From a virus: a DNA stretch of 35,514 nt. How positions within the stretch are numbered: position 1 is the stretch's first letter; each line of letters begins with the position of its first letter. Location of the stretch: positions 1 through 35,514 of IMG/VR virus record IMGVR_UViG_3300038696_000289. One strand, given 5' to 3'. The position numbers were made by a program, and so were the translations under genes. Below, piece by piece: positions 186 to 22,780 of this stretch. A model generated the notes under the pieces. The model saw nothing but the letters and a program-made list of their open reading frames with translations. It was not told where the DNA came from and did not search any database.

Positions 186-1184
186 CTAGAGCGGCAGGCC
201 CGTCGTGGCGCTATACATTGGCGTGCCGTCTTCTTTGGCGTAGGGCCACCACTTCTTCGCGGTGATGACGAAATCTGTCACCGTGTCTGAATTTAATGTA
301 TATAACGGACATGAAACAAAATCCATGCCAGTCAACTGAAGCTTTAGAACAGCGGAAGCGTCTGATTTTCCAGTCTCGTTTGAAGATGCATCACCACCAG
401 ATCCGCTAACATCGAAATCCAAGCCAACGTAAAGCTTCGCCGCTGGGTCAAATGGATTGTCACCACCTACCCATGTTACTTTCCCGCTGAAAATAAGAGA
501 CAGTCTTTCAGACCCTCCATTAGTGTTGGTGGGCTGTAGTCCGTAGTTGCCTTCAATGTCCGCACCATCATCGGTATCCGTTAATATCGCGTGTTCAAAC
601 GCGCTCCTATTATACAGTTGGAAAAAAGGGTCGGAGTTATAATAAAACGACGATCCATGTCCTGCTGTAGATCCTCCAAAGCTTGACCACATTCCGTATT
701 CGTTATCCATATCGTAAGCATGCTCGCCGCGGCCTCCCACTGCGTATGGGGTGGAATAATACTCTAAATCTGGCAAGTCTATCAAATAGAAGGATGGGTC
801 AGCCTCTAAACTGTAACCTCTGCGGCTATATCCATAGTCTACAAATGATGATTCAAAATAGGAAAACTTCTCGGCTGGTGGAGTCCCTGCTATGGTGGTT
901 GTCGAGGACGATCCTTCATCTGGAATATCAGTGATTTTCGACAAAGATCCAGCCGTGAACCAGCTATCCCTCACTCGATACATGATCTCGGAAAGTTGCT
1001 CCACTGTAACTTCTAATGGATATTCCGTGCCATCACCACACTCGACGCTTCCGTCTTCTGGATCGGTTCCGCCTGTCTCCCAGCCTTTGATGAACTTAAC
1101 CCTCGGCTCGGTGATAGAGACTGCGCCATTATCTTCGACCACTCGGCCTCGGCCCTTGTTTCGGAATGTCACAAAGTCACCCAT
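186..1184 (-). CDS. Putative tail-tip or tail-fibre protein, last late gene
   Basis: A 332-residue protein that is acidic and rich in Gly, Ser, Tyr and Phe. No enzyme motif is visible. The middle (residues 100-200) is unusually aromatic (FSYFESSF, SSFYYNSDPF), as seen in adhesive or receptor-binding tail proteins. It starts in a TAATG overlap with the stop of the upstream hub-like gene and has a clear GGAGG Shine-Dalgarno about 10 nt before the ATG, so the two genes are translationally coupled. It is the last gene of the leftward late unit and ends about 110 bp from the phage end. Its position after the hub gene suggests a tail-tip accessory or fibre protein; the function is inferred from place only. 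The base composition is visibly more AT-rich than the neighbouring gene, consistent with later acquisition or fast host-range evolution. Confidence 0.7.
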   Translation of the reverse strand: MGDFVTFRNKGRGRVVEDNGAVSITEPRVKFIKGWETGGTDPEDGSVECGDGTEYPLEVTVEQLSEIMYRVRDSWFTAGSLSKITDIPDEGSSSTTTIAGTPPAEKFSYFESSFVDYGYSRRGYSLEADPSFYLIDLPDLEYYSTPYAVGGRGEHAYDMDNEYGMWSSFGGSTAGHGSSFYYNSDPFFQLYNRSAFEHAILTDTDDGADIEGNYGLQPTNTNGGSERLSLIFSGKVTWVGGDNPFDPAAKLYVGLDFDVSGSGGDASSNETGKSDASAVLKLQLTGMDFVSCPLYTLNSDTVTDFVITAKKWWPYAKEDGTPMYSATTGLPL

Positions 1185-3151
1185 TACGCTGACCCTCCTT
1201 CAAATGCTGCGGTGTAGTGGTATTTTCCATTGGTAAATGACAGCACCAGCTCGCAGTTGCCTGAGCGGTATTGCGCTACGGTGTATGGGGTTTCGTCGCC
1301 GTCGCCAATCACTTCGGCGAGTAGGATGTTTGAGTATTCAATATAGGTGTCATCAATGTCCAGGGTAGTTGTGGCCAAGCCTGGGCTGGCCGAAACCTCT
1401 AGCGCAACGGGAGTTGTCGCATCGAGCACGCCTGCGGATGAATGTTTGATCTGGAGATAGGCGTAGTCGCCTGCCGCTGGCTCTGTGGTGTCCAGGTAGG
1501 TAGCCGTGTTGACGATCAGGTAGTGTCCTGCCGCGATAGTTAGCTCGCCGTCAGCGTTGATGCTGGCTGTAAATGGGGCCGTGCCGCTGCCGCCGTCGTC
1601 GGCGGTGGTTGTGTTGGGCGATTTGGTGGGGAGGTCGTTTGAGCCGCCTCCTCCGGTGCTGGCTCTTTGGGCTCCTATTGCTCCTTTGCGGGTGCGGGTG
1701 TTGCGGAGGAGCTGGAAGAGGTCTGTGGCTCCGAGGTGTTTTGCGGCGCCGAACTGGATCTGTGTGCTACCTGCATCAAGGTCATAGACTACGATGTAGA
1801 TTTGGGCGGCCATGCTGGCCCACTCGCTGCGGCCTCCGGTGACATTGAGGGTGCGGCTAATGTGGGAGATGTTCCCGGCCTCGGCTTCTTTGAGGGTTAG
1901 GGTGCCGTCGAATTGGAGGGTTGAGAAACTGGCGTGGATGGCTGCGGCTAGGCCGTCGGGGGTGGGCTCGGCGGGGCTGGCGTCGCCGATGGTGGTATAG
2001 GTTTGATTGCTGGCGTTGGTGCCTTGGACTTGGAGGCGGATGGTCTCGGTTTTAGCGGTGCCACCAGGTGGGGTGTAGGTGACGTCGGCTTTGATGATTT
2101 GGGCGTTGGCCCCGACGCCTCCCATCCAGTCGGCGATGCTGCCGGAGATGAGTTCTTTGGTGTAGGCGGTGCCGTCGTTTTCTTCTTCGTCGTCGACGGC
2201 GGTTGTGGTGGCGTTGGCGACGGTTACGGCGGTCGCGGCTTGGAGTTTTGGGTGGCGTTTTTTCCACCAGGTTGCGGAGGTCGCTTGGATGGCGGAAGTG
2301 ACGACTTTTTGGCGCACGTAGGAGACGGAGGAGCCTTGTAAATCAAAAAATAGATTGAGGGTTTTTAGGGGGTTGCTGGTGTCGCCTGCAGTGTCGGTGA
2401 TGATGTTTTTTTGCTCGTTGCCATCATAGGTGTCGTTGCGCTCGTATTGGACGACGACGCCATCGAGTTGGAGGTCATGGCGGGGGTTGATTGAGTTGTC
2501 GGCGATGATGGCATCGGAGTGGGCGATGTTGAGGGCGGGGAGACTTGCACGAGGCGCAAAATTTAGGGTCGGAATGTCGGTCGAGTAATCGAAATAGGCG
2601 ACGACGTTGGGGGTCCATCGGAGGACTCGTGTGATGACATCGGCGCAGGCGAGGGCATTCAACTCCTCGAACGGCATTTGGGTGGCGACGGCTACGGTGC
2701 CGAGTTGGAATTGTGCGTCGGTGCCGAGTTGCGTGCTGGCGTAGTTTACGGCTGCGGTGATGACTTGGCCGGAGGTGACTCGCGCCCCGGCGGAGTCGGT
2801 GCCAATTATTAGTTTGGAAAGATTTGGGGCGGCGGCCACGCCGCCGACGAAGCGCGCATATTCTTGCTGGTAGGTAACTTTTTGGAGCTGCCACCAGGGG
2901 CCGCTGATCTGGTATTGGATGCGCTCTAATGCTCCGCTGCCGATCCTTGAAATGTTAGTGCAGGTGCCTTTAAACCATTGTGCACCATCTCGGCGGATCG
3001 TGACGGCAGCGCCGTAGTCGTAAACGGGATCGGCATCGTAGGGGGCGGCCTGGGTAAATGTGAGGGTGTCGGGTGCCTGGGTGATGATTCGCAGCAGGAA
3101 CCCAGAGAGGTTGAGTTCGGCGGGGTCTTGGTTGTTAATGAGCCAGGTCAT
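1184..3151 (-). CDS. Putative tail hub / distal tail protein (gpD-like N-terminus)
   Basis: A 655-residue protein directly downstream of the tape measure gene, where siphoviruses and Mu-like phages encode the distal tail or hub proteins that form the tail tip. The N-terminus (MTWLINNQDPAELNL, then beta-rich text with ITQAPDTLTFTQ and VTIRRDGAQWFKGTCT) resembles the beta-barrel of phage late-control D / hub proteins. The C-terminal third is rich in Gly, Thr and Asp and reads like a beta-structured carbohydrate-binding or fibre domain. No catalytic motif is recognised. Only 15 bp separate it from the tape measure stop, and it overlaps the next gene in a TAATG. The hub role is inferred from position and a weak N-terminal likeness; the coding call itself is secure. 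Confidence 0.72.
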   Translation of the reverse strand: MTWLINNQDPAELNLSGFLLRIITQAPDTLTFTQAAPYDADPVYDYGAAVTIRRDGAQWFKGTCTNISRIGSGALERIQYQISGPWWQLQKVTYQQEYARFVGGVAAAPNLSKLIIGTDSAGARVTSGQVITAAVNYASTQLGTDAQFQLGTVAVATQMPFEELNALACADVITRVLRWTPNVVAYFDYSTDIPTLNFAPRASLPALNIAHSDAIIADNSINPRHDLQLDGVVVQYERNDTYDGNEQKNIITDTAGDTSNPLKTLNLFFDLQGSSVSYVRQKVVTSAIQATSATWWKKRHPKLQAATAVTVANATTTAVDDEEENDGTAYTKELISGSIADWMGGVGANAQIIKADVTYTPPGGTAKTETIRLQVQGTNASNQTYTTIGDASPAEPTPDGLAAAIHASFSTLQFDGTLTLKEAEAGNISHISRTLNVTGGRSEWASMAAQIYIVVYDLDAGSTQIQFGAAKHLGATDLFQLLRNTRTRKGAIGAQRASTGGGGSNDLPTKSPNTTTADDGGSGTAPFTASINADGELTIAAGHYLIVNTATYLDTTEPAAGDYAYLQIKHSSAGVLDATTPVALEVSASPGLATTTLDIDDTYIEYSNILLAEVIGDGDETPYTVAQYRSGNCELVLSFTNGKYHYTAAFEGGSA

Positions 3152-3166: not shown

Positions 3167-5299
3167 TTAGTTGCCTAGCTGGTCGATCCGGGAGGCATTA
3201 TTATCGACCGCTGACTGGATACGGGCTTGGAGTGAGGCGTTGGCGGCGACGATGGGCCCGTGGTCGATGGTGATGGCGGCGAGGGCGTCGATGGCGGGGG
3301 AGAGGTCTGGGGCGTTGGGTGCGGTCGGGGTGTTGGACGGGGTGCTTGGCTGGGTTGGGCTTGGCTGGGTTGGGCTTGGCTGGGTTGGGCTTGGCTGGGT
3401 TGGAGCGGCTAGGGGGTTGGCGGGGTCAGTGGTGCGGCCGAAATCGTCGGAGTCTCCTAGTAATTTCCCTCCCTCGAAGAACCGCTCTTTTTTTTTGCCG
3501 TCTACGTCGATAAATTTCTCTGCGCGGACACCTTCGCGGAGTTTGCGCTTTTGTTGTTCGGCTTGGCCTACTTGGCCGGTGAGGGCGATGCGCTCGGTGA
3601 GGTCGGAGTTGTCGAGGTGGTCGGGCTTGGGTGCGTTGCGTCGTTTTTCTTCGGCGGTGGCGAGTTGCTGCTCGAGCTGGACGCGCTCTTTGGCCATGGC
3701 GACGGGATCGTAGCCGCGCTCTTCGGTGAATCCGTATTTGCGGAGGCGGTTGGCGATCTTGATTTGATCTTGCTCTGCTTTGAGTGACTCGACGCGTTGC
3801 TTGTCGCCGTCGATTTGGGCGCGGAGGATCTCGTTTTGGAGTTCAAAATTGGCGGAGATGTCATCGAGCAGATCGAGCTGCTCTTCGGTGAGGGCTACTT
3901 TTTCGAGGCCGAACGTGATGCCTTCGGCTTCGAGGGCATTAGTCGCGGCTTGCGCGGCGGTGACTTCTTGCTCTGATGCGATGCGCTCCTGGTTGTGGCC
4001 TAAGATTTTACCGAGTGAGTCGAGGAGGCGGTCGACTTTGGAGATCTGCTCGTCGTAACGGGCGATGGCCTCTTTGTCGCCACTGGAGCGGGCGGTGTTG
4101 AGTGCGCTGACGTAAACTCCTCGGCGGGCGATGGCTGCAGTGCGGACCTCTTCGAGTTCGCCGAGGTTTTGCATTTCTGCGGCCTGGGACTGGAGGTCAG
4201 AGAACTGGTCGTGGAGGAGGCCGTTGAGGGCGTCTTCGGCGGCGTTGGATTTTTTGGCGATGTCTCCGATGGCGTCGGAGAAGCCGGTGATCTCGTCGAT
4301 GGCGGTGCCGATGGCGTAGCCTCCGGCGAGCGCGGCGAGGTATGGCGTAGCTGTTTTGGCGGCGAGACCGACTGCGCGAATCCCTGCGGCGGCTTTTGGC
4401 GTGACCGCAGCAATGGCGGTGTAACCTCTCGCCATCGCTCCCAGTCCAATAAGTAAAGGACCTACCCCCGCCGCGAAGGCTCCGATGCCGACGACAATGC
4501 CGCGCATGGCGGGCGACATGCTTTGCGCGGCTTTGGCGGCATCTTTGAGGCCGCTGACGATGGGTGTGATCGCGGGCAGGAGCGATTGCCCCATGACGGT
4601 GGCCAGCTCTTTGGTTTCTTTGGCGAGGAATTTTAGGGCGTTGGCATCTGAGTCTTTGGTCTTGGCTGCATCGCCGTGGGCTTTGCTGGTGCCGTCGAGG
4701 ATGAGTTGATAGCTGACGAGGGCTCGCTCGGAGGCGGTGAGTTCGCGTTTGCCGTCGCCGATGCCTTGTTTGAATGCCTCTGCTTTGACTTTACCTGCGT
4801 TGAGGGCGACGCCGAATTGTAAGAGTGGTTCGTATTGGCCGACGAGGCCGGAGCGGATCTTGGCCAGGGCTTCGTCGACTGGGATGTTATTGAAGGATGC
4901 GAGATCACCGGCGAGGGTGACGATGCTCTTTGTCATCTCCTCGGCTTCGGCATCGGCCATGCCGAGCGGCACGAGTAGATCTTGCGTGCCGGATACGAGG
5001 TCTTGAATCTCTGCGGTGGTGGCGGGCACGCTTTCGCGTAGCTCTTTGATCCACTCATTTATCGCGCCTGCGCGGTCGCCGAAGACGGCTTCTAGCTTGG
5101 AGAGCGACTCGTTGGCGTCGGCGGCGAACTTGGCCGAGATCGCACCGAGGCCGACCAGAGGCGCTGTGACCGAGAGGCTGAGCGTCTTGCCGAGGGCGGT
5201 GGCCTTATCGCCGAGTTGATCGAGCGATTTGCCTACCTTCTCACTGCCTGAGCTGTCGCCTTTGGTGAGGATCTTGATGAGTATATCGCGGGCGGACAT
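3167..5299 (-). CDS. Tail tape measure protein
   Basis: A 710-residue tape measure protein, which sets tail length and is threaded through the tail tube before DNA ejection. Evidence: an N-terminal alpha-helical region (SARDILIKILTKGDSS, LGDKATALGKTL), the typical early text on MTKSIVTLAGDLASFNN and EALAKIRSGLVGQ found in tape measure proteins, a central hydrophobic stretch with repeated Gly/Ala (about residues 265-345), and long Glu/Gln/Lys coiled-coil sequence (about 440-590). Near the C-terminus lies a PTQPS tandem repeat. It follows a small gene that fits a tail assembly chaperone and precedes the hub-like gene, the standard order. The length would predict a short to medium non-contractile tail. 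Confidence 0.92.
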   Translation of the reverse strand: MSARDILIKILTKGDSSGSEKVGKSLDQLGDKATALGKTLSLSVTAPLVGLGAISAKFAADANESLSKLEAVFGDRAGAINEWIKELRESVPATTAEIQDLVSGTQDLLVPLGMADAEAEEMTKSIVTLAGDLASFNNIPVDEALAKIRSGLVGQYEPLLQFGVALNAGKVKAEAFKQGIGDGKRELTASERALVSYQLILDGTSKAHGDAAKTKDSDANALKFLAKETKELATVMGQSLLPAITPIVSGLKDAAKAAQSMSPAMRGIVVGIGAFAAGVGPLLIGLGAMARGYTAIAAVTPKAAAGIRAVGLAAKTATPYLAALAGGYAIGTAIDEITGFSDAIGDIAKKSNAAEDALNGLLHDQFSDLQSQAAEMQNLGELEEVRTAAIARRGVYVSALNTARSSGDKEAIARYDEQISKVDRLLDSLGKILGHNQERIASEQEVTAAQAATNALEAEGITFGLEKVALTEEQLDLLDDISANFELQNEILRAQIDGDKQRVESLKAEQDQIKIANRLRKYGFTEERGYDPVAMAKERVQLEQQLATAEEKRRNAPKPDHLDNSDLTERIALTGQVGQAEQQKRKLREGVRAEKFIDVDGKKKERFFEGGKLLGDSDDFGRTTDPANPLAAPTQPSPTQPSPTQPSPTQPSTPSNTPTAPNAPDLSPAIDALAAITIDHGPIVAANASLQARIQSAVDNNASRIDQLGN
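3346..3407 (-). repeat. 15-bp tandem repeat encoding PTQPS in the tape measure protein
   Basis: The plus-strand unit TGGGTTGGGCTTGGC occurs three times exactly (3351-3365, 3366-3380, 3381-3395), with a partial fourth copy and a related left edge. It encodes a Pro-Thr-Gln-Pro-Ser linker, so slippage changes the protein length by five residues without breaking the frame. Confidence 0.9.
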
Positions 5300-5324: not shown

Positions 5325-5355
5325 GATCGGTCTGATTGGTCGGATCTGACCGATC
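5325..5355. repeat. GATC nonamer array, copy 1
   Basis: GATC or GATT recurs every 9 bp: GATCGGTCT, GATTGGTCG, GATCTGACC, GATC. It fills the gap between the tail chaperone and tape measure genes and can fold on itself. Member of a nine-copy family in this phage. Confidence 0.85.
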
Positions 5356-5660
5356 TATTTTCTGGCTAAGGTCGGTGCGGCGGTTAGCCAGCCGATTGCG
5401 TATACGGTTTGGAAGACGGGCTCGAAGATCTCGGTGGCGTCGGTGTCGATGACATCGACTAGGGATTCGGGCGTGGGATACGTTTCGCGCTCGGCATCGG
5501 GGAGCGCGGCCCAGATAAGGATGAGCGAGGCGGCGTAGTCGGTGCCTGCTTCGAGGAGCCCGGAGAAGCTGAGGCCGAAGACGCCGTAGCGGAATCTTGC
5601 GTGCTTGTCGAATGTGAGGGTGGCCGGGCGGCCTGCGAGTTGGATGGTTGTAGTGTTCAT
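5355..5660 (-). CDS. Putative tail assembly chaperone (gp41-like position)
   Basis: A 101-residue protein immediately upstream of the tape measure gene, the usual place of the tail assembly chaperone that keeps the tape measure protein soluble before tube assembly. The sequence (IQLAGRPATLTFDKHARFRYGV, then YAASLILIWAALPD) has the pattern of these small proteins: a short beta hairpin, then helices ending in a tryptophan-rich segment. Its stop is at the edge of GATC array copy 1. In many phages this gene makes a longer product by ribosomal frameshifting; I see no second chaperone frame before the tape measure start, so a single product is likely. Its leader is an unusually T-rich (plus strand) tract at 5661-5690. 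Confidence 0.65.
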   Translation of the reverse strand: MNTTTIQLAGRPATLTFDKHARFRYGVFGLSFSGLLEAGTDYAASLILIWAALPDAERETYPTPESLVDVIDTDATEIFEPVFQTVYAIGWLTAAPTLARK

Positions 5661-5695
5661 TTTTTTGTTTGTTTTTTTTTTTGTTTTTTAGCTGC

Positions 5696-5815
5696 TTACA
5701 GGTTTTTGACGGCATCAGCCATACGACGACCAACCAACTCTTTCGACTCGCTGGTGTAGTGGATGTCATCACCCAAATTCACGGGTAGTTTGATTGCGGC
5801 CTCCCGTCCATTCCG
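5696..5815 (-). pseudogene. 3' remnant of an SGNH/acetylesterase-like gene
   Basis: Between the 105-residue gene and the tail chaperone gene, a minus-strand frame reads REAAIKLPVNLGDDIHYTSE and then SKELVGRRMADAVKNL before a TAA at 5696-5698. DxIHY(T) followed by a Gly-Arg-Arg helix is the C-terminal block of SGNH hydrolases and sialate O-acetylesterases, where the D and H are catalytic. No start or upstream catalytic Ser block is visible in this frame, and its 5' part overlaps the neighbouring gene in a different frame. I read it as the tail end of a deleted or frameshifted esterase gene. Moderate confidence, because only about 40 residues remain. Confidence 0.5.
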
Positions 5816-6086
5816 CTCGGGTGACAAAATTTGCGCGTTTTTCCTCTATGCTCATGTGGACATAGGGATCAGCGGCATGGTTAATTATTTCGGCGGCCTG
5901 CCCCTTTTGATCGCTCACTATGGCGACAAGGGCTGTTGTCGTCTCTTCGCGTGGCGCGTAGCGGTCATCCAGCACGAAAAACACACCGCCAAATATGCCA
6001 CCAACTACGGCAGATAGCGTCAGCATGAAATTTATAGCTGCTCGATACCACTCTATACGGGCGATTTGATCTTTGAATTTTTGCAT
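5769..6086 (-). CDS. Small membrane-anchored protein of unknown function
   Basis: A 105-residue protein with one clear transmembrane segment (about residues 18-40, INFMLTLSAVVGGIFGGVFFVL) flanked by charged residues. It is followed by a polar helix and a short block, VHMSIEEKRANFVTRAEW, similar in style to phage virion or lysis-associated small proteins that carry an HM-(S/T)-x-EEK segment. It lies between a tail-fibre-assembly-like gene and the tail chaperone. The final residues may derive from a fusion: the sequence past its TGA is an esterase-like remnant in another frame. The function is unknown; a holin or spanin-like role is possible but not supported by more than the single membrane helix. 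Confidence 0.65.
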   Translation of the reverse strand: MQKFKDQIARIEWYRAAINFMLTLSAVVGGIFGGVFFVLDDRYAPREETTTALVAIVSDQKGQAAEIINHAADPYVHMSIEEKRANFVTRAEWTGGRNQTTREFG

Positions 6087-6092
6087 TCGATT

Positions 6093-6596
6093 TTATAGTG
6101 CAGCGGGGTCGATCTGGCTGGCGGAGATGAATAGAGCATCGACCTGCGCGGAGGTGAGTCCTGCGACAGTGCCCAGGGCATCGACGATGCTGGCGGAGCG
6201 CGTATAATATTCGGCGTCGTTGACTAGGATATTTGCCACCGCTTGTTGCTCGGCGGGGAGTCCTGTGATGAGGGTAGCGAGGTCGATTCCTTGGCTGAGC
6301 AGCGCGAGTTTAAGCTGCGCCTTGGAGACTCGGGAAGGCACGACAGGCGGTGTTGGCGCGGTGATGTGAGCAATGCCCGCATCAATCTCGGACTGAGTTA
6401 TCACGCGGTCAATCAGCGTGGGCTCTCCGTCCTCGGTTGCAGGCGGGACGCTGTAGGAGAGCGTGTGCGTCTCCTGATCCCATGCTAGTAGCGTTGCGTC
6501 GTCCTCGGGGGCGAATGGCAACGGCGCGGTAAACACCTGTGTAGGGTGTCCCTTGCTGTAGATTAGGTGATTAAGATTTGCTGATACGATTTGCAT
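6093..6596 (-). CDS. Tail fibre accessory / assembly-like protein
   Basis: A 167-residue protein translated in a TAATG overlap with the large fibre-like gene upstream, with a GGAGG-type ribosome site inside that gene's end. The N-terminal half (MQIVSANLNHLIYSKGHPTQ; LLAWDQETHTLSYSVPP) fits tail-fibre-linked proteins. The C-terminal half contains RVSKAQLKLALLSQGIDLAT and a helical YYTRSASIVDALGTV segment, a pattern common in small proteins encoded just after phage tail fibre genes. The tight coupling argues for a chaperone or a fibre-tip partner of the upstream product. No catalytic motif is visible. Confidence 0.68.
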   Translation of the reverse strand: MQIVSANLNHLIYSKGHPTQVFTAPLPFAPEDDATLLAWDQETHTLSYSVPPATEDGEPTLIDRVITQSEIDAGIAHITAPTPPVVPSRVSKAQLKLALLSQGIDLATLITGLPAEQQAVANILVNDAEYYTRSASIVDALGTVAGLTSAQVDALFISASQIDPAAL

Positions 6597-8350
6597 TATA
6601 GGTTGCCTCCACGTTGGGTGAGTATTGTTAGGTCAAAATCGGACTGAGTGGTCGCTGTGATCGTGACTAAATCCTGATGAGTTGTGCCGTCGGAGCGCTG
6701 GATGATGTCAGTCCCGCCGCTCACTTCGATGTGGATTTCGCGGTAGCTTAAATTTTGCTCTACGGTCGAGTCCACGGGTATGTAGCGATTATCGACGATG
6801 ACCCCTGTGATGATGGTGTAAGGACTGAGCGTGATGACGTCCCCGAACGGGAATGAATCTGCGGAACCATCGACGTTAATGACGCGGATATTGCCAAAGT
6901 CTCGCGGTGCTAGGTGCCCGTCGGTCAGGCTGGCAAGCGCATCGTAGCGATTAGTTGATAGATCGCGGTGTTGTGCGCCGTTGCCCTCTGTTAGTGGCAA
7001 TGATGCAACCGCGCCTAATCTCGTTACTTCAATCGCGGTTATCGCAAAAGCACCACCCTCAGTCATCCCACGGATATTGATTCTACCATCAGTCCCACTA
7101 GATACAACTCCTTCAAAGACCGTCTCACCATCAGTCAGTGTAAATGTGTCAATATGACTATTTCCAACGAATAGACCAACAGATGCGTTCTGGACACAGG
7201 TCAAACGCACGGTGCCTCCGCTGCTAGTAATCACCAATCGGACAGATTGACCTGCTACTAGCCCAACGGAGCGGATCAGTGAACTGTCATTGTCCGCATC
7301 ATAGTTCCATGCGTTGCCGCTAAAAGTAAATGCGCTGTTTGAAGTAGAAAAAGAATCGCCGTCGGCTGTAAAGTCGCTAGAGTAAATTAAGCTACCCCAT
7401 TGATTAACAGGATTTTGAGCCAACCAACTCGGCACCCCGTATGTTGCAATCGCGGCAATCTGCGTGCCTGTTAGCGAGGTATTATACAGAGCCATGCCTG
7501 AGATGATCGCGCCTGCTGCGACAGTCGATACCGTATCAAGATTAACATCGCCAGATAGCACTTGGCTGGCTCCTGTGGACACGCCGTTGACGAAAACACT
7601 CAGGGCAGTGCCTGTGCGGGTGAGTGCCACCTCGGCACGCCCTGCGATGGTCGCGGTGTAGGTGCGAGTCGTCGCGCCAAGGGTTACAGTGATGTCGCCC
7701 GCATTGACCTCGATAGTGGTATCTGTGCCGCTGATACGGATGCCAGTGGATGCAGTAAATACGAAGGCAAAGTCGCCCGCGAGCGTCGGCAGTGTGCTGA
7801 TGTCGATAGTGTCAGCGACTTGCAGGGCACGGCCAGCCGCGTAAGTCTTATTGTTGAGCTCGGTGACGGTATCTGCGTCCGTTTGCGTTATCGCGGCGGC
7901 GAGCGCGGTGAGCTCGTCCTGGATGACTGCATCGGAGGCTAGGATTTGTGCCCGAGTGAATCCGGTATTCTCATCGAGCAGATCTACGCCTCGGGCGTCG
8001 TTCAGATTACTAAGAAACTCAGGGAAGGTCGATTGATCAACACCGCCTGCTGCACCCCATACGACGGGCTGCTGGGTGACAGGTGACGTAGCTTCAGAGA
8101 TGATTACTTCACCAAACCCACTGCCAGTGTCGAGCAGCGCGGCGGTGCCGATCTCGCTGTCGAGGGTTGCGCCGGCGGGCAGGTCGGCGGTAGTGAGGGT
8201 GACTGCTCCAGTGAGGTTGAGGGTAGTGGGCTCAGTTAAGGTGCCGTCGGCAGGGTTGTAGCGCACGGCGGCGGACTGGGCGGCTGCTCCAGCTGCTAGG
8301 GCTAGGAGCGAGTAGGTAATGGCTGCAAGGAGCTTGTATGGTGTTTTCAT
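6596..8350 (-). CDS. LamG-like tail fibre / receptor-binding protein with a Sec-type signal
   Basis: A 584-residue, beta-rich, Thr/Gly/Asp-rich protein. Residues 1-25 (KTPYKLLAAITYSLLALAAG, then AAAQS) form a textbook Sec signal peptide with a basic start, a hydrophobic core and an AxA-type cleavage site. Residues about 180-310 (FAFVFTASTGIRISG; AGRAEVALTRTGTALSVFVNG; GMALYNTSLTGTQIAAI) match the pattern of LamG/concanavalin carbohydrate-binding folds. The remainder continues with jelly-roll-like text. The position in the tail module and the coupled fibre-accessory gene point to a host-range protein. The signal peptide is unusual for a virion tail protein and suggests capture of a secreted host protein, or display on the infected cell. 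Confidence 0.78.
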   Translation of the reverse strand: MKTPYKLLAAITYSLLALAAGAAAQSAAVRYNPADGTLTEPTTLNLTGAVTLTTADLPAGATLDSEIGTAALLDTGSGFGEVIISEATSPVTQQPVVWGAAGGVDQSTFPEFLSNLNDARGVDLLDENTGFTRAQILASDAVIQDELTALAAAITQTDADTVTELNNKTYAAGRALQVADTIDISTLPTLAGDFAFVFTASTGIRISGTDTTIEVNAGDITVTLGATTRTYTATIAGRAEVALTRTGTALSVFVNGVSTGASQVLSGDVNLDTVSTVAAGAIISGMALYNTSLTGTQIAAIATYGVPSWLAQNPVNQWGSLIYSSDFTADGDSFSTSNSAFTFSGNAWNYDADNDSSLIRSVGLVAGQSVRLVITSSGGTVRLTCVQNASVGLFVGNSHIDTFTLTDGETVFEGVVSSGTDGRINIRGMTEGGAFAITAIEVTRLGAVASLPLTEGNGAQHRDLSTNRYDALASLTDGHLAPRDFGNIRVINVDGSADSFPFGDVITLSPYTIITGVIVDNRYIPVDSTVEQNLSYREIHIEVSGGTDIIQRSDGTTHQDLVTITATTQSDFDLTILTQRGGNL

Positions 8351-8368
8351 GACTATTTATTTAGGTTA

Positions 8369-8390
8369 GATCGGACTGATCGGTCGGATC
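8369..8390. repeat. GATC nonamer array, copy 2
   Basis: GATCGGACT, GATCGGTCG, GATC with an exact 9-bp period, followed by a T run on the plus strand. It sits in the gap between two tail genes. Confidence 0.85.
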
Positions 8391-8414
8391 TTTTTTATTG
8401 AGTGTGAGCTTATG

Positions 8415-9185
8415 TTAGAGGACTCTGATCCAGATTTTTTCGTTGGTCGACGCGGCGTAGTCGTCTGGACGGACGATGCCTTGGGCGGCGGCTTCGCCGT
8501 TGGTTCCCGCCTGCAAACGCCAAAATTGGAGGGCGCCGGAGATGACGATGGAGACCTTGGAATTTACGGCTAGCTCGGTAGTGGCTATGGAGTCGAGGTC
8601 GGTGGCGGTGCCTCCGGTTAGGCCGGTAAAATCTCGGAGGTCGTGGGTGCTGGCGGCGAGTGTGCGGTAGGCATCGAGCTGGGTGGTAGTGACATAGTCG
8701 GGATCGATGACGGCGGGGGTGCTGGTGGGGCCGGTGCCGTCCTGGACGATTTCGACTTGACCCCAGCCTAGGGAGACGAGGGAGCCGTCGTCCATCACTG
8801 CGGAGATGACTAGCCAGGCTGGGCCGATTGCGATGTTGGTCTCGGTGTCGGCAAAAACAAAGGTGACGTGCTGGGCGGTTGTGGCGGCCCACTGGGCTGC
8901 CGTAAATGTCACGGCATCGAGGGCGGTAATGGTGTCGGCCATGAGGGCGGCGGCTCCGGCGGCGGGTGCCGATCCGGAGACGAGTGCTTTGACCTCGAGG
9001 GTGATGTTGGCGACATTGGTGAGATCGTAGGGCGTGGAGCCGCTCTCCATGATGCCGACCTCGATTTGCACGTCTACTCCGGCGGGGATCTTGAGCTGCT
9101 TGGATGTGAGGGCGTCGATCCAGCTGCCCTGGTCGACAAATGCGTTTACGGGGAGGCGGTAGCGAGTTTTTGCGAGTGTGGTCAT
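8415..9185 (-). CDS. Putative tail protein, upper baseplate/fibre anchor
   Basis: A 256-residue protein with a beta-rich N-terminal half: VDVQIEVGIMESGSTPYDLT and ANITLEVKAL read like the beta-sandwich of phage BppU-type baseplate or fibre-anchoring proteins. The middle section is Thr/Ala-rich with a helical TTTQLDAYRTLAASTHDLRD, and the C-terminus ends in polar beta text (RPDDYAASTNEKIWIRVL). It precedes the LamG-like fibre gene in the same unit, which fits an anchor for that fibre. The family name is a guess from the sequence pattern; the coding call is firm. Confidence 0.65.
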   Translation of the reverse strand: MTTLAKTRYRLPVNAFVDQGSWIDALTSKQLKIPAGVDVQIEVGIMESGSTPYDLTNVANITLEVKALVSGSAPAAGAAALMADTITALDAVTFTAAQWAATTAQHVTFVFADTETNIAIGPAWLVISAVMDDGSLVSLGWGQVEIVQDGTGPTSTPAVIDPDYVTTTQLDAYRTLAASTHDLRDFTGLTGGTATDLDSIATTELAVNSKVSIVISGALQFWRLQAGTNGEAAAQGIVRPDDYAASTNEKIWIRVL

Positions 9186-9197
9186 AATGTGGGAGGC

Positions 9198-9635
9198 TTA
9201 GAATTTTGTGAGTCGCGAGATTGAGATTTGGAGGCGGCCGCCGGTGAGGCGGTAGGTGTGCTCGGTGCGGGAGCCTTTGATGTTGGAATCTAGGATCTCG
9301 ATAAATGGGGTCGTCAGGTAACGGACGGCTCCGTTGTTTAGGGTGACTTCGCAGACCATGTCATCGGCGGTGGGCAGGTCGGCTGGGTGGAGGATTAAAA
9401 AATCTTGCGCGCTCTCGATGTCGAGATGCTCCCGCCAGACCGTAAATGAGCCCTGCCAAGTCACGTTGCCGCGATTAAAAATTTTGGCGGTGTCCGCGCG
9501 GAGGAAAGAAACTGTCTCTAGGATAGGGCCGCCTGCGACACGTAAACCGGACGGGCCGCGCGCCTCGATGGGCCCACCGACGCCGAGGGCGACGAAGGTG
9601 GGCGATCCAGTTTTCGTAAAGCGGACGGATTTCAT
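9198..9635 (-). CDS. Tail protein of unknown role
   Basis: A 145-residue beta-rich protein (VRFTKTGSPTFVALGVGGPI; SFTVWREHLDIESAQDFLIL; VRYLTTPFIEILDS). It sits between the tail tube-like gene and the anchor-like gene, with small gaps on either side. The HTYRLTGGRLQISI ending resembles the final strands of small tail or head-tail proteins that report a ligand-binding barrel. No motif identifies it further. Upstream of its start, at 9642-9680, a short AT-rich sequence carries a TGACTAAT direct repeat. Confidence 0.62.
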   Translation of the reverse strand: MKSVRFTKTGSPTFVALGVGGPIEARGPSGLRVAGGPILETVSFLRADTAKIFNRGNVTWQGSFTVWREHLDIESAQDFLILHPADLPTADDMVCEVTLNNGAVRYLTTPFIEILDSNIKGSRTEHTYRLTGGRLQISISRLTKF

Positions 9636-9683
9636 AATTCAACAATGACTAATTGATAATTATTAATGACTAATCATGGAGAG

Positions 9684-10598
9684 CTAGGCGACTACGCCGA
9701 CTGAGAAAAGGGCATCGTTGTCTCCGGTAGTTTGGCGGCGGGCGGTGCGGAATGTGAGCGCCTGAGTGCGGTAGGTGTCGCTGCCGTATGCGTAGCCGCC
9801 CGGCTCGGCAGAGCAGTCTTGTAGGACTACGGAGGGGTCGCCGGTGGCACCGCCCGCGATGGTGAGATCGTAGCGAGCGGCCTCCTTGCCGATGCCACCG
9901 CCAAACCCGATGAGGGTAGTCAGGGCGCTTTCGGCCATGGCTGGCGGGATGAATGTGGCGCTCACCCGCAGATCTTGCAGCGCCATGCCGACGATGCCGA
10001 GGCCGTCGATGCGATTTTCGGAGAGCGTCATGTCAAAACTGATCGTGTAGCCCTCGCTGCTGTGGTAGGTCGTGCTGTTATAGCTAGCGGTGTAGGCCGC
10101 GTTTAGGACCTTGGTGAGATCGAGGCCGGTGAGTGATGCGCCGGTGGCATCGGTGCCAAAGGCCAGGTAACTGGCTAGGGCGTCGACTTCGCTTTCGTTG
10201 GCGATCAGGCAGGTGATGGTCATCTCGCCAAATTGGCTGCCGCTGCCGGAGAGCAAAATATCGGACATCGATGTGATGGCGGCATTTGCAAACGTGATCG
10301 GAACGCCATTTATCGGCGTGAGCACGGCGGCGGCGTCCGCTGCCCCGAAAATATCGGTGCCGATGGTTGTGCTGGCATAGGGAAAGAGCACGCCGAGATT
10401 ATCCCACTGTGTGGGGGTGCCGGAGATCTCGACGGTCTTACCGATGAGCAGCTCTTTGACGATGCCGAAAGCATCGATCGTGCGAGTCTCTTTTTCCATA
10501 TTGAGATTTACGGTGAGGCCGTTTTCAAAGAAGAATGAGCCTCCACCGAGTGTGAGTTTGGCGGGGCCTTTGCGGATGTTTGTGCGATCGATGGACAT
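9684..10598 (-). CDS. Putative major tail tube protein
   Basis: A 304-residue protein with the usual features of phage tube or tail-structural proteins: a beta-rich text with LTLGGGSFFFENGLTVNLNM near the start, alternating Gly and Thr strands, and no charged clusters or catalytic motifs. It is preceded by the tail terminator and completion genes and by a small gene at the place of Mu gp38. No tail sheath (Mu gpL-like) precedes it, which favours a flexible non-contractile tail. It is the best candidate for the tube because no other protein in the tail module is of that kind. A heptamer repeat array lies just upstream. Confidence 0.65.
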   Translation of the reverse strand: MSIDRTNIRKGPAKLTLGGGSFFFENGLTVNLNMEKETRTIDAFGIVKELLIGKTVEISGTPTQWDNLGVLFPYASTTIGTDIFGAADAAAVLTPINGVPITFANAAITSMSDILLSGSGSQFGEMTITCLIANESEVDALASYLAFGTDATGASLTGLDLTKVLNAAYTASYNSTTYHSSEGYTISFDMTLSENRIDGLGIVGMALQDLRVSATFIPPAMAESALTTLIGFGGGIGKEAARYDLTIAGGATGDPSVVLQDCSAEPGGYAYGSDTYRTQALTFRTARRQTTGDNDALFSVGVVA

Positions 10599-10607
10599 AA
10601 TATTTTA

Positions 10608-10640
10608 GAATTAAGAATTAGGAATGAAGAATGGAGAATT
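10608..10640. repeat. Heptamer tandem array GAATNNN
   Basis: Five consecutive 7-bp units on the plus strand: GAATTAA, GAATTAG, GAATGAA, GAATGGA, GAATT. It lies in the gap between the tail tube-like gene and the small downstream gene. It is unrelated to the GATC arrays but shares their intergenic position. Confidence 0.8.
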
Positions 10641-10657
10641 GTGTATGGATGACAGTC

Positions 10658-10834
10658 CTAGGAAGCTTTGGGCTTGCCTGCGGATTCGGCGACTTGCGCG
10701 GCGTGGGCGGCTTGGCGTTTGGCTTCGCGGTCTTTGAGCGTCTTGCCGTCGGCTTCGTGTTGGGTTGCGGCTTTTTCGCAGAGGGCTTTGTTTGGATCCT
10801 CGACTGTGGTGGGAGTTGGTTTTGCTGGTTTCAT
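10658..10834 (-). CDS. Small hydrophilic protein, Mu gp38-like position
   Basis: A 58-residue protein, MKPAKPTPTTVEDPNKALC then an Ala/Lys/Glu-rich helix and a TAG stop at 10658-10660. It uses the same GC-rich codon pattern as its neighbours and fills the otherwise empty gap between the tail terminator and tube-like genes, in the late direction. Many Mu-like phages have a tiny gene here (Mu gp38). The function is unknown. Confidence 0.6.
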   Translation of the reverse strand: MKPAKPTPTTVEDPNKALCEKAATQHEADGKTLKDREAKRQAAHAAQVAESAGKPKAS

Positions 10835-10875
10835 TTTATCGGTGGGTTGGATTGTGAGTGGTTTTTTTTTTGTGA

Positions 10876-11343
10876 TTATTCGGGACGGGCTTGGAGCCCG
10901 GCGGCGGTTTCAAAGTTGACCCCGAAGCTGCGGTAGCCCTCGGGGGCATCCTCTACTGTGAGGGCGTTGCTTTGTGCGCTGACCATGCAGTGTTGGCCGT
11001 CGGCGAGATTGAGATTAAACTGGTGTAGTGAGCGCAGGATGCGCTCTGCGATTTCGATGGCGGTGGCGCCTTGGTTTACGATGGGGCTCTCGGCGATTAG
11101 TATCGCGATCTCGATGGTGTCAAAATACGGGCCTGGGAGATTTGGCCGCGACACACGAGGCACGGGGTAGCGGACGATGATCGATACGCCGATCTCGTCG
11201 ACGGCTTTTTGCACCTCATACTCGGTCTCGGCCTGATCCTCTGAGAGCACGCCGAGGGAGTCGCCAGCGAAGAGCGTGATGAGGCGGATGCGGACGAGCT
11301 CTTGGATTTGCTCGAGGGTGGAGGTGGAGGTTGATTTGTTCAT
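10876..11343 (-). CDS. Putative tail terminator (Mu gp37-like)
   Basis: A 155-residue protein beginning right after the tail completion gene (a 1-bp gap), as for Mu gp37. The middle reads VDEIGVSIIVRYPVPRVSRP and DTIEIAILIAESPIVNQG, a mixed beta sheet with an Asp/Glu-rich edge, as in phage tail terminator proteins that cap the tube and join it to the head. The C-terminal half has SLHQFNLNLADGQHCMVSAQ. The assignment rests on synteny and general fold pattern. Confidence 0.68.
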   Translation of the reverse strand: MNKSTSTSTLEQIQELVRIRLITLFAGDSLGVLSEDQAETEYEVQKAVDEIGVSIIVRYPVPRVSRPNLPGPYFDTIEIAILIAESPIVNQGATAIEIAERILRSLHQFNLNLADGQHCMVSAQSNALTVEDAPEGYRSFGVNFETAAGLQARPE

Positions 11344-11928
11344 TTAGCTGGTTTGTCTGGCGATGTAGTCCTGAGCGGCCTCGACGAGGGCGCTGCCTGA
11401 CTCGGCCTCGGTGGGGAGGGCGGTGGGATCTTTGGGCACGGTGACTTTGGGCGTGAGAAAATAAAAAAATCTTAGGGAGTCGTCGCCTTGCGATTGGACC
11501 AGGAAGCCGCCGGGCTTGCTGCCTTTGCGCGGGATAAAAAAGAGATTAGGCACGGTGCCCGCTGAGGCGCGGACGCCGTAAACGGACTCGTCCATGGGGA
11601 TGGCTAGGAATTTACTGCGGCGCGGGGTGATGGTGGCACCGTAGATTTTTGCCGCGATGGCGGGATCGCCGATGGCGATGGTGGCGTTGCTGGTAGTGGC
11701 TCCGGTGTAGGAGGTGGCGCGACGGATGCGCGCCCAGAAGTTTGTCTTTTTCCACCCGCGCTTGTTTGGCTTTTGGTTTTTGCGGAGGAAATGGTTGTGC
11801 AGGGTTTGTTCATGGGTTTTTCCTAGCACTTGCATGAGGCCCTGGCGGCGGGGGCCGTCCACGGTCGAGGCGAGCCGGGCAAGTTCGGCTTGGGTCGCTT
11901 CGTCTGTGACTGTGATTTTTGATTTCAA
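11344..11928 (-). CDS. Phage virion morphogenesis protein (Mu gpG-like tail completion)
   Basis: A 194-residue protein matching the pattern of the phage virion morphogenesis/tail completion family. The diagnostic parts are the N-terminal helix with GLMQVLGKTHEQTLHNHFLR, then NKRGWKKTNFWARIRRATSY, then the beta text ATIAIGDPAIAAKIYGATIT and PRRSKFLAIPMDESVYG. The protein completes the neck so that tails can attach to filled heads. It lies between the minor head-like gene and the tail terminator, the usual gpF-gpG-gp37 order. The C-terminus (TVPKDPTALPTEAESGSALV) also follows the family, with a helical DYIARQ end. Confidence 0.82.
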   Translation of the reverse strand: MKSKITVTDEATQAELARLASTVDGPRRQGLMQVLGKTHEQTLHNHFLRKNQKPNKRGWKKTNFWARIRRATSYTGATTSNATIAIGDPAIAAKIYGATITPRRSKFLAIPMDESVYGVRASAGTVPNLFFIPRKGSKPGGFLVQSQGDDSLRFFYFLTPKVTVPKDPTALPTEAESGSALVEAAQDYIARQTS

Positions 11929-11955
11929 AAGGTTTGGAGGTGGGAAGGTTTCGAG

Positions 11956-11986
11956 GATCGGTCGGATCAGACTGATCGGACTGATC
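11956..11986. repeat. GATC nonamer array, copy 3
   Basis: GATCGGTCG, GATCAGACT, GATCGGACT, GATC with an exact 9-bp period, located between the morphogenesis and minor-head-like genes and followed by a short T run on the plus strand. Confidence 0.85.
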
Positions 11987-11996
11987 TTTTATTTTG

Positions 11997-12791
11997 CTAG
12001 GTGAGTGAGGCTTTTAGCCCTTGGATGACCACGCCGGGAAAGAGGGTTTTGAGGGTGGCTATCATATCGGGTTTGAAGCCTCGGATGCTTTGCTGGTTGG
12101 CGGCGTTGTAGCTGGGGTCGGCTGAGGGTTGCGGTGCGGGGTCGTCTGCGGTGATGACGCCGAGGGCGATGGCTTCGCGGCGGGGGATGGCAGCGACGCC
12201 CATGCCGCTCCCGAAATTGAATGGGGGATAGGGGCGACCGAATCGGCTGATCGCTATCCAGATCGGTGCGTTGACCAGGGCGATCATGCGGCCGCCGTAT
12301 AGGGTGCCGCCATTGGCTGACCAAATGCTGATCCAGTCGCGGCGCTCTTCGCGGCCTTCGACGCGGATCAGCTCTTGGGCGGGGAATGCTTCGAGCAGCT
12401 CGGGAGTCTGCTGGGCTTTGTGGCGACCGAATGAGTAGGCCTCCTCCATCTGAAAATCGTAGATTAACTCTAGGCGGCGGCGGCTAGTGATGTCGGTTAG
12501 GGAGCCAGAGTCTCCGGGAGCGGCGCCGAGGTTTTTGCGCATGTCGGCGACGAAGCGAGACCGATCGGCAAAGGCGTCTTCCGGATTGAGGGTGAGTGCC
12601 TCGTCGAGGATGCCCTGCATGTCGGAGAGAGTGCGCATCTCGGTGATCGTCGAGGAGAAAAACGCGCGGTCGGTGATCTCGCTCGGCACCTCTGCCCATT
12701 GCGCTGAGTTCAAGGCCGAGGCAACCGGCGTCTTGGAGCCCAGGCGGTCGACGGCCTCCGAGAAGGGAGCGATGTTGGCGTTTAGTTTCAT
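11997..12791 (-). CDS. Putative minor head protein (Mu gpF / head morphogenesis-like)
   Basis: A 264-residue protein with a helical N-terminal half (SQMTDMQGILDEALTL-type text around residues 55-70; RRRLELIYDFQMEEAYSFGR around 103-123) and a compact C-terminal half. That half reads EGREERRDWISIWSANGG, APIWIAISRFGRPYPPFNFG and PRREAIALGVI, which follows the DPxW...PPxxxxxCR...RR-A-xx-LG pattern of Mu gpF/SPP1 gp7 minor head proteins, although the cysteines of that motif are missing. The role is inferred as a portal-associated minor head protein. Its place after the C5 methyltransferase rather than after the portal is unusual. Confidence 0.62.
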   Translation of the reverse strand: MKLNANIAPFSEAVDRLGSKTPVASALNSAQWAEVPSEITDRAFFSSTITEMRTLSDMQGILDEALTLNPEDAFADRSRFVADMRKNLGAAPGDSGSLTDITSRRRLELIYDFQMEEAYSFGRHKAQQTPELLEAFPAQELIRVEGREERRDWISIWSANGGTLYGGRMIALVNAPIWIAISRFGRPYPPFNFGSGMGVAAIPRREAIALGVITADDPAPQPSADPSYNAANQQSIRGFKPDMIATLKTLFPGVVIQGLKASLT

Positions 12792-12812: not shown

Positions 12813-13685
12813 TTAGGCTTTATTTAGTTTTTGCGCAATCCATTCAGCAATTTGCGGACAGATGGCATCTCCGGCTGCATGAGCCTCTGCCCAGTTCCAG
12901 TCATCCAGTCCGCTGGGAATCCCTGTCTCAGCAGACACTCTTTCCCGCTCAACCATCTGATGCCATCTGTTTTCCTCAGCAACGAGAAGCTGACTGCCAA
13001 GGTTAATTCGTGCCCGCGTATTGGTTGCCGTCTGAGTATGCCCAGGCCAGCAGTCCGCTTGCCGCCATGGCTGCTCGACCTTACCAAACGAGCAAGGTAA
13101 AGCTTCCATTGGTGCGGCATCAGCCAGCAGGTCAAAGGGGGGCATTTCTCCAAGACCGCAGACCAAGAAAACGCGACGGCGTTTTTGGGCGACTCCGAAA
13201 TATTGAGCATCAAGCACCCTTGCAAATCCCACATAATTGCAGTCGGCAATATCGCTGATGACTTTTTCAATGTCCTGGCAATCGTTGCTATGGAGCAATG
13301 CCGGGACGTTTTCAAGGACCAGCCAGCGGGGTTGTATTTCCCTGGCGATACGAATGAACTCCGAAAATAAACCGGATCGCTCACCTTTGAGTCCTTGGAT
13401 GCCGCCTTTTTTTCTGTGCCCCATGTCGGAGATGTCGGTGCAGGGGAAACCTCCTGCGATGCAATCCACTGGGCAAAGTTCTTTTGCTGAGACTTTACGG
13501 ACATCTTCAAACTGTCTGGCATGGGGAAATCTGTCACTAAGCACAGCCCGTTTGATTGGGTTAATTTCGACTTGCCATGCTGTTTCCCAGCCTGCGGCTT
13601 CGAAGCCGAGGCTGAACCCTCCGACGCCTGCAAAGAGTTCGCCGATTTTGAGTTTGTTGTCTGAGGATTTGTCATTGGTGGGCAT
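12813..13685 (-). CDS. C5 cytosine DNA methyltransferase with compensating frameshifts
   Basis: A 290-residue protein that would place a methyl group on C5 of cytosine in phage or host DNA using SAM, protecting phage DNA against restriction. Visible motifs: I (FAGVGGFSLGFEAAGW, residues 18-33), IV with the catalytic Cys82 (GGFPCTDIS), VI (LENVPALL, 124-131), VIII (QKRRRVFLV, 167-175) and X (GDAICPQIAEWI, 272-283). Motif IX is missing from this frame but is present in the next frame at 12905-12955 (LSGKECLLRQGFPADW). So a frame change before IX, near the A run around 12970, and a second change back after it would rebuild a normal enzyme. Either the gene has two small indels (a recent pseudogene or sequencing errors) or it is truly altered in its target-recognition region. 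It is inserted between DUF1320 and minor-head genes as a moron and is flanked by GATC array copy 4. Confidence 0.87.
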   Translation of the reverse strand: MPTNDKSSDNKLKIGELFAGVGGFSLGFEAAGWETAWQVEINPIKRAVLSDRFPHARQFEDVRKVSAKELCPVDCIAGGFPCTDISDMGHRKKGGIQGLKGERSGLFSEFIRIAREIQPRWLVLENVPALLHSNDCQDIEKVISDIADCNYVGFARVLDAQYFGVAQKRRRVFLVCGLGEMPPFDLLADAAPMEALPCSFGKVEQPWRQADCWPGHTQTATNTRARINLGSQLLVAEENRWHQMVERERVSAETGIPSGLDDWNWAEAHAAGDAICPQIAEWIAQKLNKA

Positions 13686-13699
13686 GTGCTTTTTTTTTT

Positions 13700-13730
13700 G
13701 ATCGGACTGATCGGACAGATCAGTCGGATG
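13700..13730. repeat. GATC nonamer array, copy 4
   Basis: GATCGGACT, GATCGGACA, GATCAGTCG, GATG, 9-bp period. It lies directly upstream of the methyltransferase gene and may contribute to its leader. Confidence 0.83.
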
Positions 13731-13742
13731 TTTTTTGATTGG

Positions 13743-14204: not shown

Positions 14205-14222
14205 GATATGTCGTTTGGGAGT

Positions 14223-14253
14223 GATCGGTCGGATTGGTCTGATCTGACCGATC
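14223..14253. repeat. GATC nonamer array, copy 5
   Basis: GATCGGTCG, GATTGGTCT, GATCTGACC, GATC; very similar to copy 1. It lies in the capsid-DUF1320 gap and can form an imperfect hairpin. Confidence 0.85.
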
Positions 14254-14325
14254 TGTGAAAGTTTGAAAACAGTCGCGTGATTGGATCCGGAATGCGCGTC
14301 CCTCCGGGTTGACTATGGCAAGTCT

Positions 14326-16239: not shown

Positions 16240-16270
16240 GATCGGTCGGATCGGACTGATCCGACCGATC
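16240..16270. repeat. GATC nonamer array, copy 6 (perfect hairpin)
   Basis: GATCGGTCG, GATCGGACT, GATCCGACC, GATC. The first 13 bp (GATCGGTCGGATC, 16240-16252) and the last 13 bp (16258-16270) are perfect reverse complements around a 5-bp loop. It sits between the scaffold/protease gene and the small helical gene. Confidence 0.9.
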
Positions 16271-16285
16271 AGGAATGCGGATCGA

Positions 16286-17810: not shown

Positions 17811-17836
17811 GATCGGTCGGATTAATCGGTCGGATC
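17811..17836. repeat. GATC nonamer array, copy 7
   Basis: GATCGGTCG, GATTAATCG, GTCG, GATC. It overlaps the last codons of the portal gene, encoding KDPTD before the stop. Confidence 0.75.
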
Positions 17837-22156: not shown

Positions 22157-22780
22157 TTAGTAGCTGTGAAAATCGCGGAATCCGGCATAGCTATCGCAGC
22201 CGCTAAACCACGCGGTGGCCGCCCAAATCGGATTACTCCAGTTTGGGCCATATCTCACCCTCGCCTCCGGAGTGGTCACCCATAGGGTGCCTTTTACATA
22301 CGCAGCATTCCTCGCCGAGGCAGGCGAGGCATAGACCGGGGCTAACTCTGAGTCGTTGGCTACCGTCGCGGCGAGCGCATCCGCCAGCTGCTGCTGGTAG
22401 GTATGGGCAGGGCCACTAGCCGGGACGGTCGGATCCGGCTCAGCCGCCAGCACATTCGCCCACTCATCCACAATTAACCTTTGCAGGCTCGTATCATCCG
22501 GATAGACTGAGGCCACACCCTCCTGTAGCGCGAGGGCCACATCACCCGGCGCAGAGGCACGGTCAAATGCCGCATCGATCACAGTGCGGAGTGCAAACTG
22601 CCCCGCGCCGTCTTCGGTGATTTGAGGCACCTGCGAAAGCAGGAGCGCCTTGGCCGTGCCCTTAATCAGATCATAAGCGACCGGTCGATCCTCCTTAAAA
22701 TCATCAATAGCCTGGCAGCCCGTAAACGCAACCGCTCCAATGAGCAGCGCAGTGAGTAGTATCTGAGTTAGTTTTTTCAT
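22157..22780 (-). CDS. Lipoprotein of the lysis/virion-associated region
   Basis: A 207-residue lipoprotein: a basic start, MKKLTQILLTALLIGAVAF, then TGC at the lipobox (Cys21), so it is expected to be lipid-anchored after signal peptidase II cleavage. The middle is helical and acidic (EGVASVYPDDTSLQRLIVDE, QQLADALAATVANDSELA). The end contains tryptophans and GCDSYAGFRDFHSY. Together with the 41-residue lipoprotein upstream it may act in lysis (outer-membrane partner) or superinfection immunity. No family recognised. Confidence 0.75.
   Translation of the reverse strand: MKKLTQILLTALLIGAVAFTGCQAIDDFKEDRPVAYDLIKGTAKALLLSQVPQITEDGAGQFALRTVIDAAFDRASAPGDVALALQEGVASVYPDDTSLQRLIVDEWANVLAAEPDPTVPASGPAHTYQQQLADALAATVANDSELAPVYASPASARNAAYVKGTLWVTTPEARVRYGPNWSNPIWAATAWFSGCDSYAGFRDFHSY

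Follow-up and report, generated by a model that had tools for sequence, protein, structure and literature searches.

Known tailed phages are considered to produce their tail fibres, and to mount them on the tail, inside the cytoplasm, and the locus examined here raises the question of why a fibre-like gene of such a phage should begin with what looks like a Sec signal peptide. The window (the whole stretch of 35,514 bases that was analysed, from IMG/VR virus record IMGVR_UViG_3300038696_000289) has genes for Mu-type transposition and for a terminase, a portal protein, a protease and a tape measure. A MuA-type transposase (phrog_310; 29435-31573, plus strand) and a MuB-type protein (phrog_296) were found together with tailed-phage structural genes, and this gene content makes the virus a Mu-like tailed phage. 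The terminase shares 87% identity with that of a Puniceicoccaceae MAG (Verrucomicrobiota), and the hosts are taken to be Verrucomicrobiota-type bacteria. A preliminary description of this DNA had noted that a signal on a tail fibre-like protein is odd, and the present analysis agrees.

The fibre gene and its signal-like N-terminus

The fibre gene (6596-8350, minus strand; 584 amino acids, ATG start) lies between a putative adaptor gene of 256 amino acids (8415-9185, minus), whose role is assigned from homologues that are fused to fibre bodies elsewhere, and a partner gene of 167 amino acids (6093-6596, minus; phrog_6034, function unknown), ahead of the tape measure gene (3167-5299, minus). The same strand encodes a 105 amino acid protein with one membrane-like segment (5769-6086), for which a lysis role is a guess, a 655 amino acid protein behind the tape measure that is hub-like by position only (1184-3151) and a tail-tube-like protein (9684-10598), the anchor of the survey described below, whose role was assigned from position and size and which had no PHROG match. 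The adaptor had no Pfam match at E <= 1, to BppU_N or any other domain, and its predicted structure (from four sequences) had a mean pLDDT of 38.1, too low for use.

Residues 1-25 of the fibre (8276-8350, minus; MKTPYKLLAAITYSLLALAAGAAAQ) consist of MKTPYK, an uncharged hydrophobic stretch and AGAAAQ. A positive n-region, a hydrophobic core and small residues at -3 and -1, as expected of a Sec signal cleaved by signal peptidase I, were found in this fibre and in that of a sibling phage. All signal calls reported here are predictions made by a home-made rule, under which these residues scored H = 2.03. The scores of ten E. coli signal peptides ran from 1.92 to 3.18, all of them passing, and 2.03 was reached by 34 of 5000 shuffles of fibre residues 2-200. 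The pass mark (H = 1.75) was fixed only after the window, E. coli and shuffle scores were known. The signal proposed for residues 1-25 in the preliminary description is thus borne out, as a prediction, by the score and the shuffles. Three of 47 tiled window genes pass the rule, namely the fibre, the membrane protein at 5769-6086 and a lipoprotein-like gene (22157-22780; MKKLTQILLTALLIGAVAFTGC) that is kept in the sibling.

The body of the fibre had also been described as LamG-like, which is plausible and falls short of being established: there was no Pfam LamG match at E <= 1, and a profile comparison with the LamG regions of related fibres gave E = 0.008 with a probability of just 5%. No PHROG match and no meaningful Pfam match was obtained for the protein, its predicted structure (single sequence) had a mean pLDDT of 34.6, too low for use, and sequence searches of the PDB returned nothing beyond one irrelevant match (E = 0.45).

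The sibling phage (L012), Mu-like as well, encodes at the same locus a 756 amino acid protein with its own signal (MKTTSKPIACALYALAITVLAATSADGQ), behind it the same segment of about 40 residues, a repetitive middle and a GDSL-like C-terminus (Pfam Lipase_GDSL at 21.2 bits, below the cut-off of 23.6), the body of which matches tail fibre phrog_11419 (E = 1e-12). The two phages offer a clean natural comparison, with a near-identical backbone, different bodies and the signal retained. In the signal part 10 of 25 aligned residues are identical, substitutions number 11, 10 and 14 at codon positions 1, 2 and 3, and two indels, of 6 and 3 nt, are both in frame. In the segment behind it (residues 26-67; 8150-8275, minus) 31 of 42 aligned residues are identical, with 8, 6 and 23 substitutions at the three codon positions. 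The signal sequence drifts, to judge from this alignment, while its class, a charged start and a hydrophobic core, is kept. Since 2.4-12.5% of sequences still passed the signal rule in a drift simulation, the comparison of two siblings is moderate evidence. The comparison of N-termini across relatives recommended in the preliminary description thus yielded a diverged signal with the same segment behind it in the sibling, and signals recurring in related prophages.

These alignments bear on two alternatives to an export signal. The N-terminal helix might, as the preliminary description had also suggested, stay uncleaved and serve as a hydrophobic anchor to the tail or the adaptor, and the conservation of the segment behind it in both siblings is what would be expected of an attachment segment. 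We nevertheless consider an anchor improbable, given that the signal parts have diverged more than this segment while retaining the charged start and hydrophobic core, and that the signals of different loci are wholly different; divergence with retention of class is the behaviour of signal peptides and not of packed anchors. Alternatively, translation might begin at GTG codon 29, leaving the signal-like stretch as an upstream leader. A later start of this kind, which the preliminary description had named as the finding that would speak against a signal, has this one weak candidate: the codon is the sole alternative in-frame start among the first 80, it is the same Val codon in the sibling, and all indels fall upstream of it. 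No Shine-Dalgarno sequence is evident there (nor is one evident at the fibre ATG), and the 6 and 3 nt indels keep the frame of the supposed leader. In other loci, moreover, the frame with the signal opens across the stop codon of the gene before it, with an overlap of 4 nt in six and of 1 nt in one of the 17 loci checked, which favours the full-length start for those loci. A late start is accordingly judged more doubtful still than an anchor.

The fibre gene itself is a mosaic. Outside it, positions 8415-12791 and 5523-5671 share 97% and 98% DNA identity with the sibling (genome G002); inside it, at 8144-8278, identity to the sibling is 72%. A module at 7866-8151 (minus; fibre residues 67-162) is common to a 125-kb phage (G004; 90% DNA identity), and a block at 6376-7828 (minus), comprising the body, the stop codon and the start of the next gene, is common to a lambda-like phage (G003; 96% DNA identity). 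The G003 gene joins the window-type body to an N-terminus of another kind that has no signal; it stands in a tail locus, after a tape measure and a virion structural protein, and its weak match to tail fibre phrog_6578 (E = 3e-4) falls outside the body common to the two. The N-terminus ahead of the middle module in G004 is different again, and likewise signal-less. Since the signal and residues 26-67 recur at the sibling locus, they belong to this phage line; what follows them matches G003 and G004 and was acquired from other phages, the body having been swapped in.

The mosaic tells heavily against the suggestion, made in the preliminary description, of a captured host secreted lectin. The general look of a signal followed by a lectin-like body is all that recommends it; the DNA of the body matches that of a phage fibre without a signal at 96% identity, the signal and N-segment precede an unrelated body at the same locus of the sibling, and the N-terminus had no confirmed relative in genome contigs and two weak matches only in 43 genomes of the family (E = 0.008; L018 and L019), of which the first looks unrelated and the second sits in an open frame of 6253 residues. 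We regard such a capture as very improbable indeed. In a tblastn search of INPHARED neither the fibre (E <= 1e-3) nor its N-segment (E <= 1) had a relative, and among IMG/VR viruses the N-terminus was found in the sibling alone; the window and the sibling are the only free-virus examples of the arrangement.

Further features of the window were recorded. Dispersed 9-bp iteron-like repeats of the GATCGGTCG/GATCGGACT type occupy gaps between late genes (5325-5356, 8360-8400, 11947-11987, 13700-13731, 14214-14263, 16240-16271 and 17815-17846); one block lies directly upstream of the fibre start, and the sibling has some of them. Two direct repeats of 82 bp (25825-25906 and 27270-27351) are 95% identical and 1.4 kb apart. 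A DNA methyltransferase gene (12813-13685) stands amid the head-tail genes, and in the sibling its place is taken by a different gene that is methylase-like by eye.

Signals in the fibre regions of related prophages

Among 372 genomes from the order to which genome G001 belongs, 56 had homologues of the adaptor and 7 had homologues of the tail tube; a tail-tube profile run against 387 genomes of the phylum matched 17 of them, at 19 places. From 25 distinct tube places 20 loci were counted, five being dropped: four on contigs that stop a short way past the tube (G688, G561, G506 and G667) and G107, with no readable gene and 2.2 kb left, while G092, with 2.1 kb, was kept. At least one signal-bearing sense ORF of at least 200 amino acids was present within 6.5 kb behind the tube in 15 of the 20 loci (15 of 21 with G107 included). 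No signal was found in L053, L055, L109 and L118, of which L109 was counted as signal-less although its fibre region is hard to read; the reading of the fibre regions of L054/L109 and L111 is unreliable. L052 becomes a further signal locus if the start adjoining the adaptor is used, as automatic gene picking overlooks true starts such as this one and is imperfect in high-GC contigs. The first start is TTG in L116.

By ORF, a signal at the first start was observed in 24 of 99 sense against 0 of 43 antisense frames, and at any start within 45 amino acids in 30 of 99 against 4 of 43. Signal-passing genes were also more frequent in the fibre region (28/101) than over the 10 kb preceding the tube (13/155; P = 9e-5). 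As a baseline, one of 15 annotated tail proteins from eight other phages passes the rule, probably as a false positive, although these phages (seven from 14 listed matches and one other) are too few for a general claim of rarity. The signal-bearing ORF lies behind a hub-like gene in L122 and, in the other 14 loci, ahead of any recognisable tape-measure- or hub-like gene, none being recognised in several within the sequence read. Some of the ORFs counted resemble lipoproteins and not fibres, for example the third in L117.

Eight prophages (L129, L131, L132, L134, L137, L140, L142 and L143) have a small signal-bearing gene about 1-1.8 kb before the tail tube. These genes encode 110-137 amino acids (225 in one case) and account, one per locus, for 8 of the 13 upstream signal passes; they may possibly encode another tail-module protein that is exported.

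A contrast emerged between adaptors that are fused to a fibre and those that are not. Fifty-nine adaptor loci were examined, 11 of which gave no match on re-search and several of which end before the next gene. In 35 loci one gene of at least 430 amino acids combines the adaptor domain with a fibre-like body, and none of the 35 has a signal at any start; most of these genes belong to small genomes from a single order and so are not independent, and a prophage origin is not certain for all of them, L094, L100 and L102 adjoining genes that are not phage-like by eye. Among separate fibres adjoining an adaptor, a signal was predicted in 10 of 11 (window, L012, L052, L056, L059, L063, L116, L117, L120 and L121, the last with an adaptor assigned from position and alignment alone), L091 being the exception; L060-L062, in which the gene that follows is short or unrelated, were excluded, and with them the count is 10 of 14. 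The P values for the contrast between fused and separate genes (3e-9 and 1e-7) are overstated, as these loci are relatives of one another and came from more than one kind of search.

Some bodies on the two sides of this contrast are homologous. Window residues 435-579 are related to the fused bodies of L097 (E = 1e-14), L102 and L107, the L052 fibre to the fused body of L053 (E = 1e-17) and the L063 fibre to fused L107 (55%, E = 1e-45) and others; fused L102 and L107 match Pfam Laminin_G_3. Because such bodies presumably act on the virion when fused, their separate, signal-bearing forms can be argued to be virion fibres too.

Tail identity and possible role of the signal-bearing proteins

Nine signal-bearing proteins were scanned for tail domains, and five matched a tail-class PHROG at E <= 0.01, in two cases through collagen repeats and in one weakly. 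The first signal-bearing fibre of L117 matched Pfam Collar (Tail Collar; E = 2e-19) and many tail fibre PHROGs, and L059 matched a tail fibre PHROG (E = 5e-23) and GDSL; L114 and the second L117 fibre matched tail fibre PHROGs mainly via collagen-like repeats. In L124 a BppU_N match lies right behind the signal (E = 1.4e-4; 22.1 bits, just below the cut-off of 23.1); it was seen in one of three L124-type proteins scanned, being absent in L125 and L126. L121 matched BNR_2, and a tail PHROG at E = 0.007 only, L063 came just below the cut-off for Laminin_G_3 and matched no PHROG, and L115 and L125 gave no useful Pfam or PHROG match. A search with L063 returned two distant relatives, both without a signal. 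Not all signal-bearing genes of the region are shown to be fibres. A GDSGSP motif, known from trypsin-like proteases, occurs near the C-terminus of three signal-bearing proteins (L114 2629-4596, L115 2069-3427 and L123 2226-4229).

The fibre gene of the window lies in the tail module beside the adaptor gene, and its body has been exchanged between phages, as would be the case for a tail fibre. Taking this locus and mosaic together with the signal-like N-terminus, its recurrence and the homologous bodies in signal-less adaptor fusions, we tentatively prefer, at a little short of even confidence, the reading that the window gene encodes a virion tail fibre that is made through Sec and joins the tail after export, probably at lysis. 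On this view the fibre would serve a Mu-like tailed phage as its receptor-binding protein and would be synthesized with a Sec signal peptide that can be cleaved. Its export to the periplasm, where it would be trimmed and folded, would come late in infection, and when the membranes break at lysis it would join tails carrying the adaptor, probably docking via the conserved segment at residues 26-67. Recombination would swap its body between phages. Somewhat more tentatively, the same scheme may extend to a lineage of Verrucomicrobiota tailed phages that would build heads and tails in the cytoplasm and pass their adhesion proteins (fibres and some adaptors) through Sec into the periplasm, the two being joined at lysis.

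The main rival, akin to the display on the host surface raised in the preliminary description, accepts export and denies the virion. The protein would remain on the envelope of the cell that makes it, or of a lysogen, where it would mask or modify receptors, giving superinfection exclusion or blocked re-adsorption in the manner of a secreted moron built of fibre parts. The signals do look cleavable, and several bodies are of enzyme- or lectin-like types that could act on a cell surface (GDSL in L059 and weakly in L012, BNR_2 in L121 and Laminin_G_3 near the cut-off in L063). The partner gene also lacks a signal in the window, as it does in L063, whereas its homologue in L052 (6595-7098, reversed) has a predicted signal peptide of its own, a distribution that counts against a strict co-export unit. 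Against a role off the virion, phages with separate fibres would then be left without an obvious receptor-binding body, since elsewhere it is on the adaptor, in fused genes that have no signal, that homologous bodies are found, and Collar and BppU_N-like proteins are signal-bearing as well. We consider this rival unlikely, if the most serious of the alternatives to a virion fibre joined after export.

If a lineage regularly has Sec signals on the genes of its fibre region, then either its virions are finished outside the cytoplasm or its fibre genes now encode envelope proteins of the infected cell. Both readings bear on how fibres fold, how premature binding to the receptors of the phage's own host is avoided and how competitors are blocked.

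Comparison with known systems

No account of Sec signals on tail fibres was found in the titles and abstract openings of the open-licence literature, the full texts of which may hold such accounts. The arrangement of the locus resembles that of the BppU-type adaptors of lactococcal siphophages, in which the adaptor gene adjoins a swappable receptor-binding gene in the tail module, and the signal-bearing relative L124 matches BppU_N itself, just below the cut-off. It differs in that the signal is on the fibre and the window adaptor is without a Pfam match; to our knowledge, BppU and its receptor-binding proteins have no signal peptide. A comparison of the profile of the window adaptor (A4) with that containing L124 (A5) gave an hhalign probability of 0.3%, so that a link between the window adaptor and BppU is not shown by either the Pfam search or the profile comparison; A5 had no confirmed match in viral contigs.

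PblA and PblB of Streptococcus phage SM1 are phage tail proteins and end up on the bacterial surface; they are not known to have a signal peptide, their release needing the lysis genes, whereas a Sec-type signal is predicted in the window fibre. Exported morons such as Lom of phage lambda are signal-bearing genes near the fibre genes of temperate phages. Lom, however, is a separate outer membrane protein, while here the fibre-type proteins themselves bear the signal. A parallel to the preferred reading would be pIII of the filamentous phages, a receptor-binding protein of the virion with a Sec signal that is cleaved in pIII and predicted here. Filamentous phages assemble in the membrane, whereas the window, which has terminase, portal and tape measure genes, is from a tailed phage.
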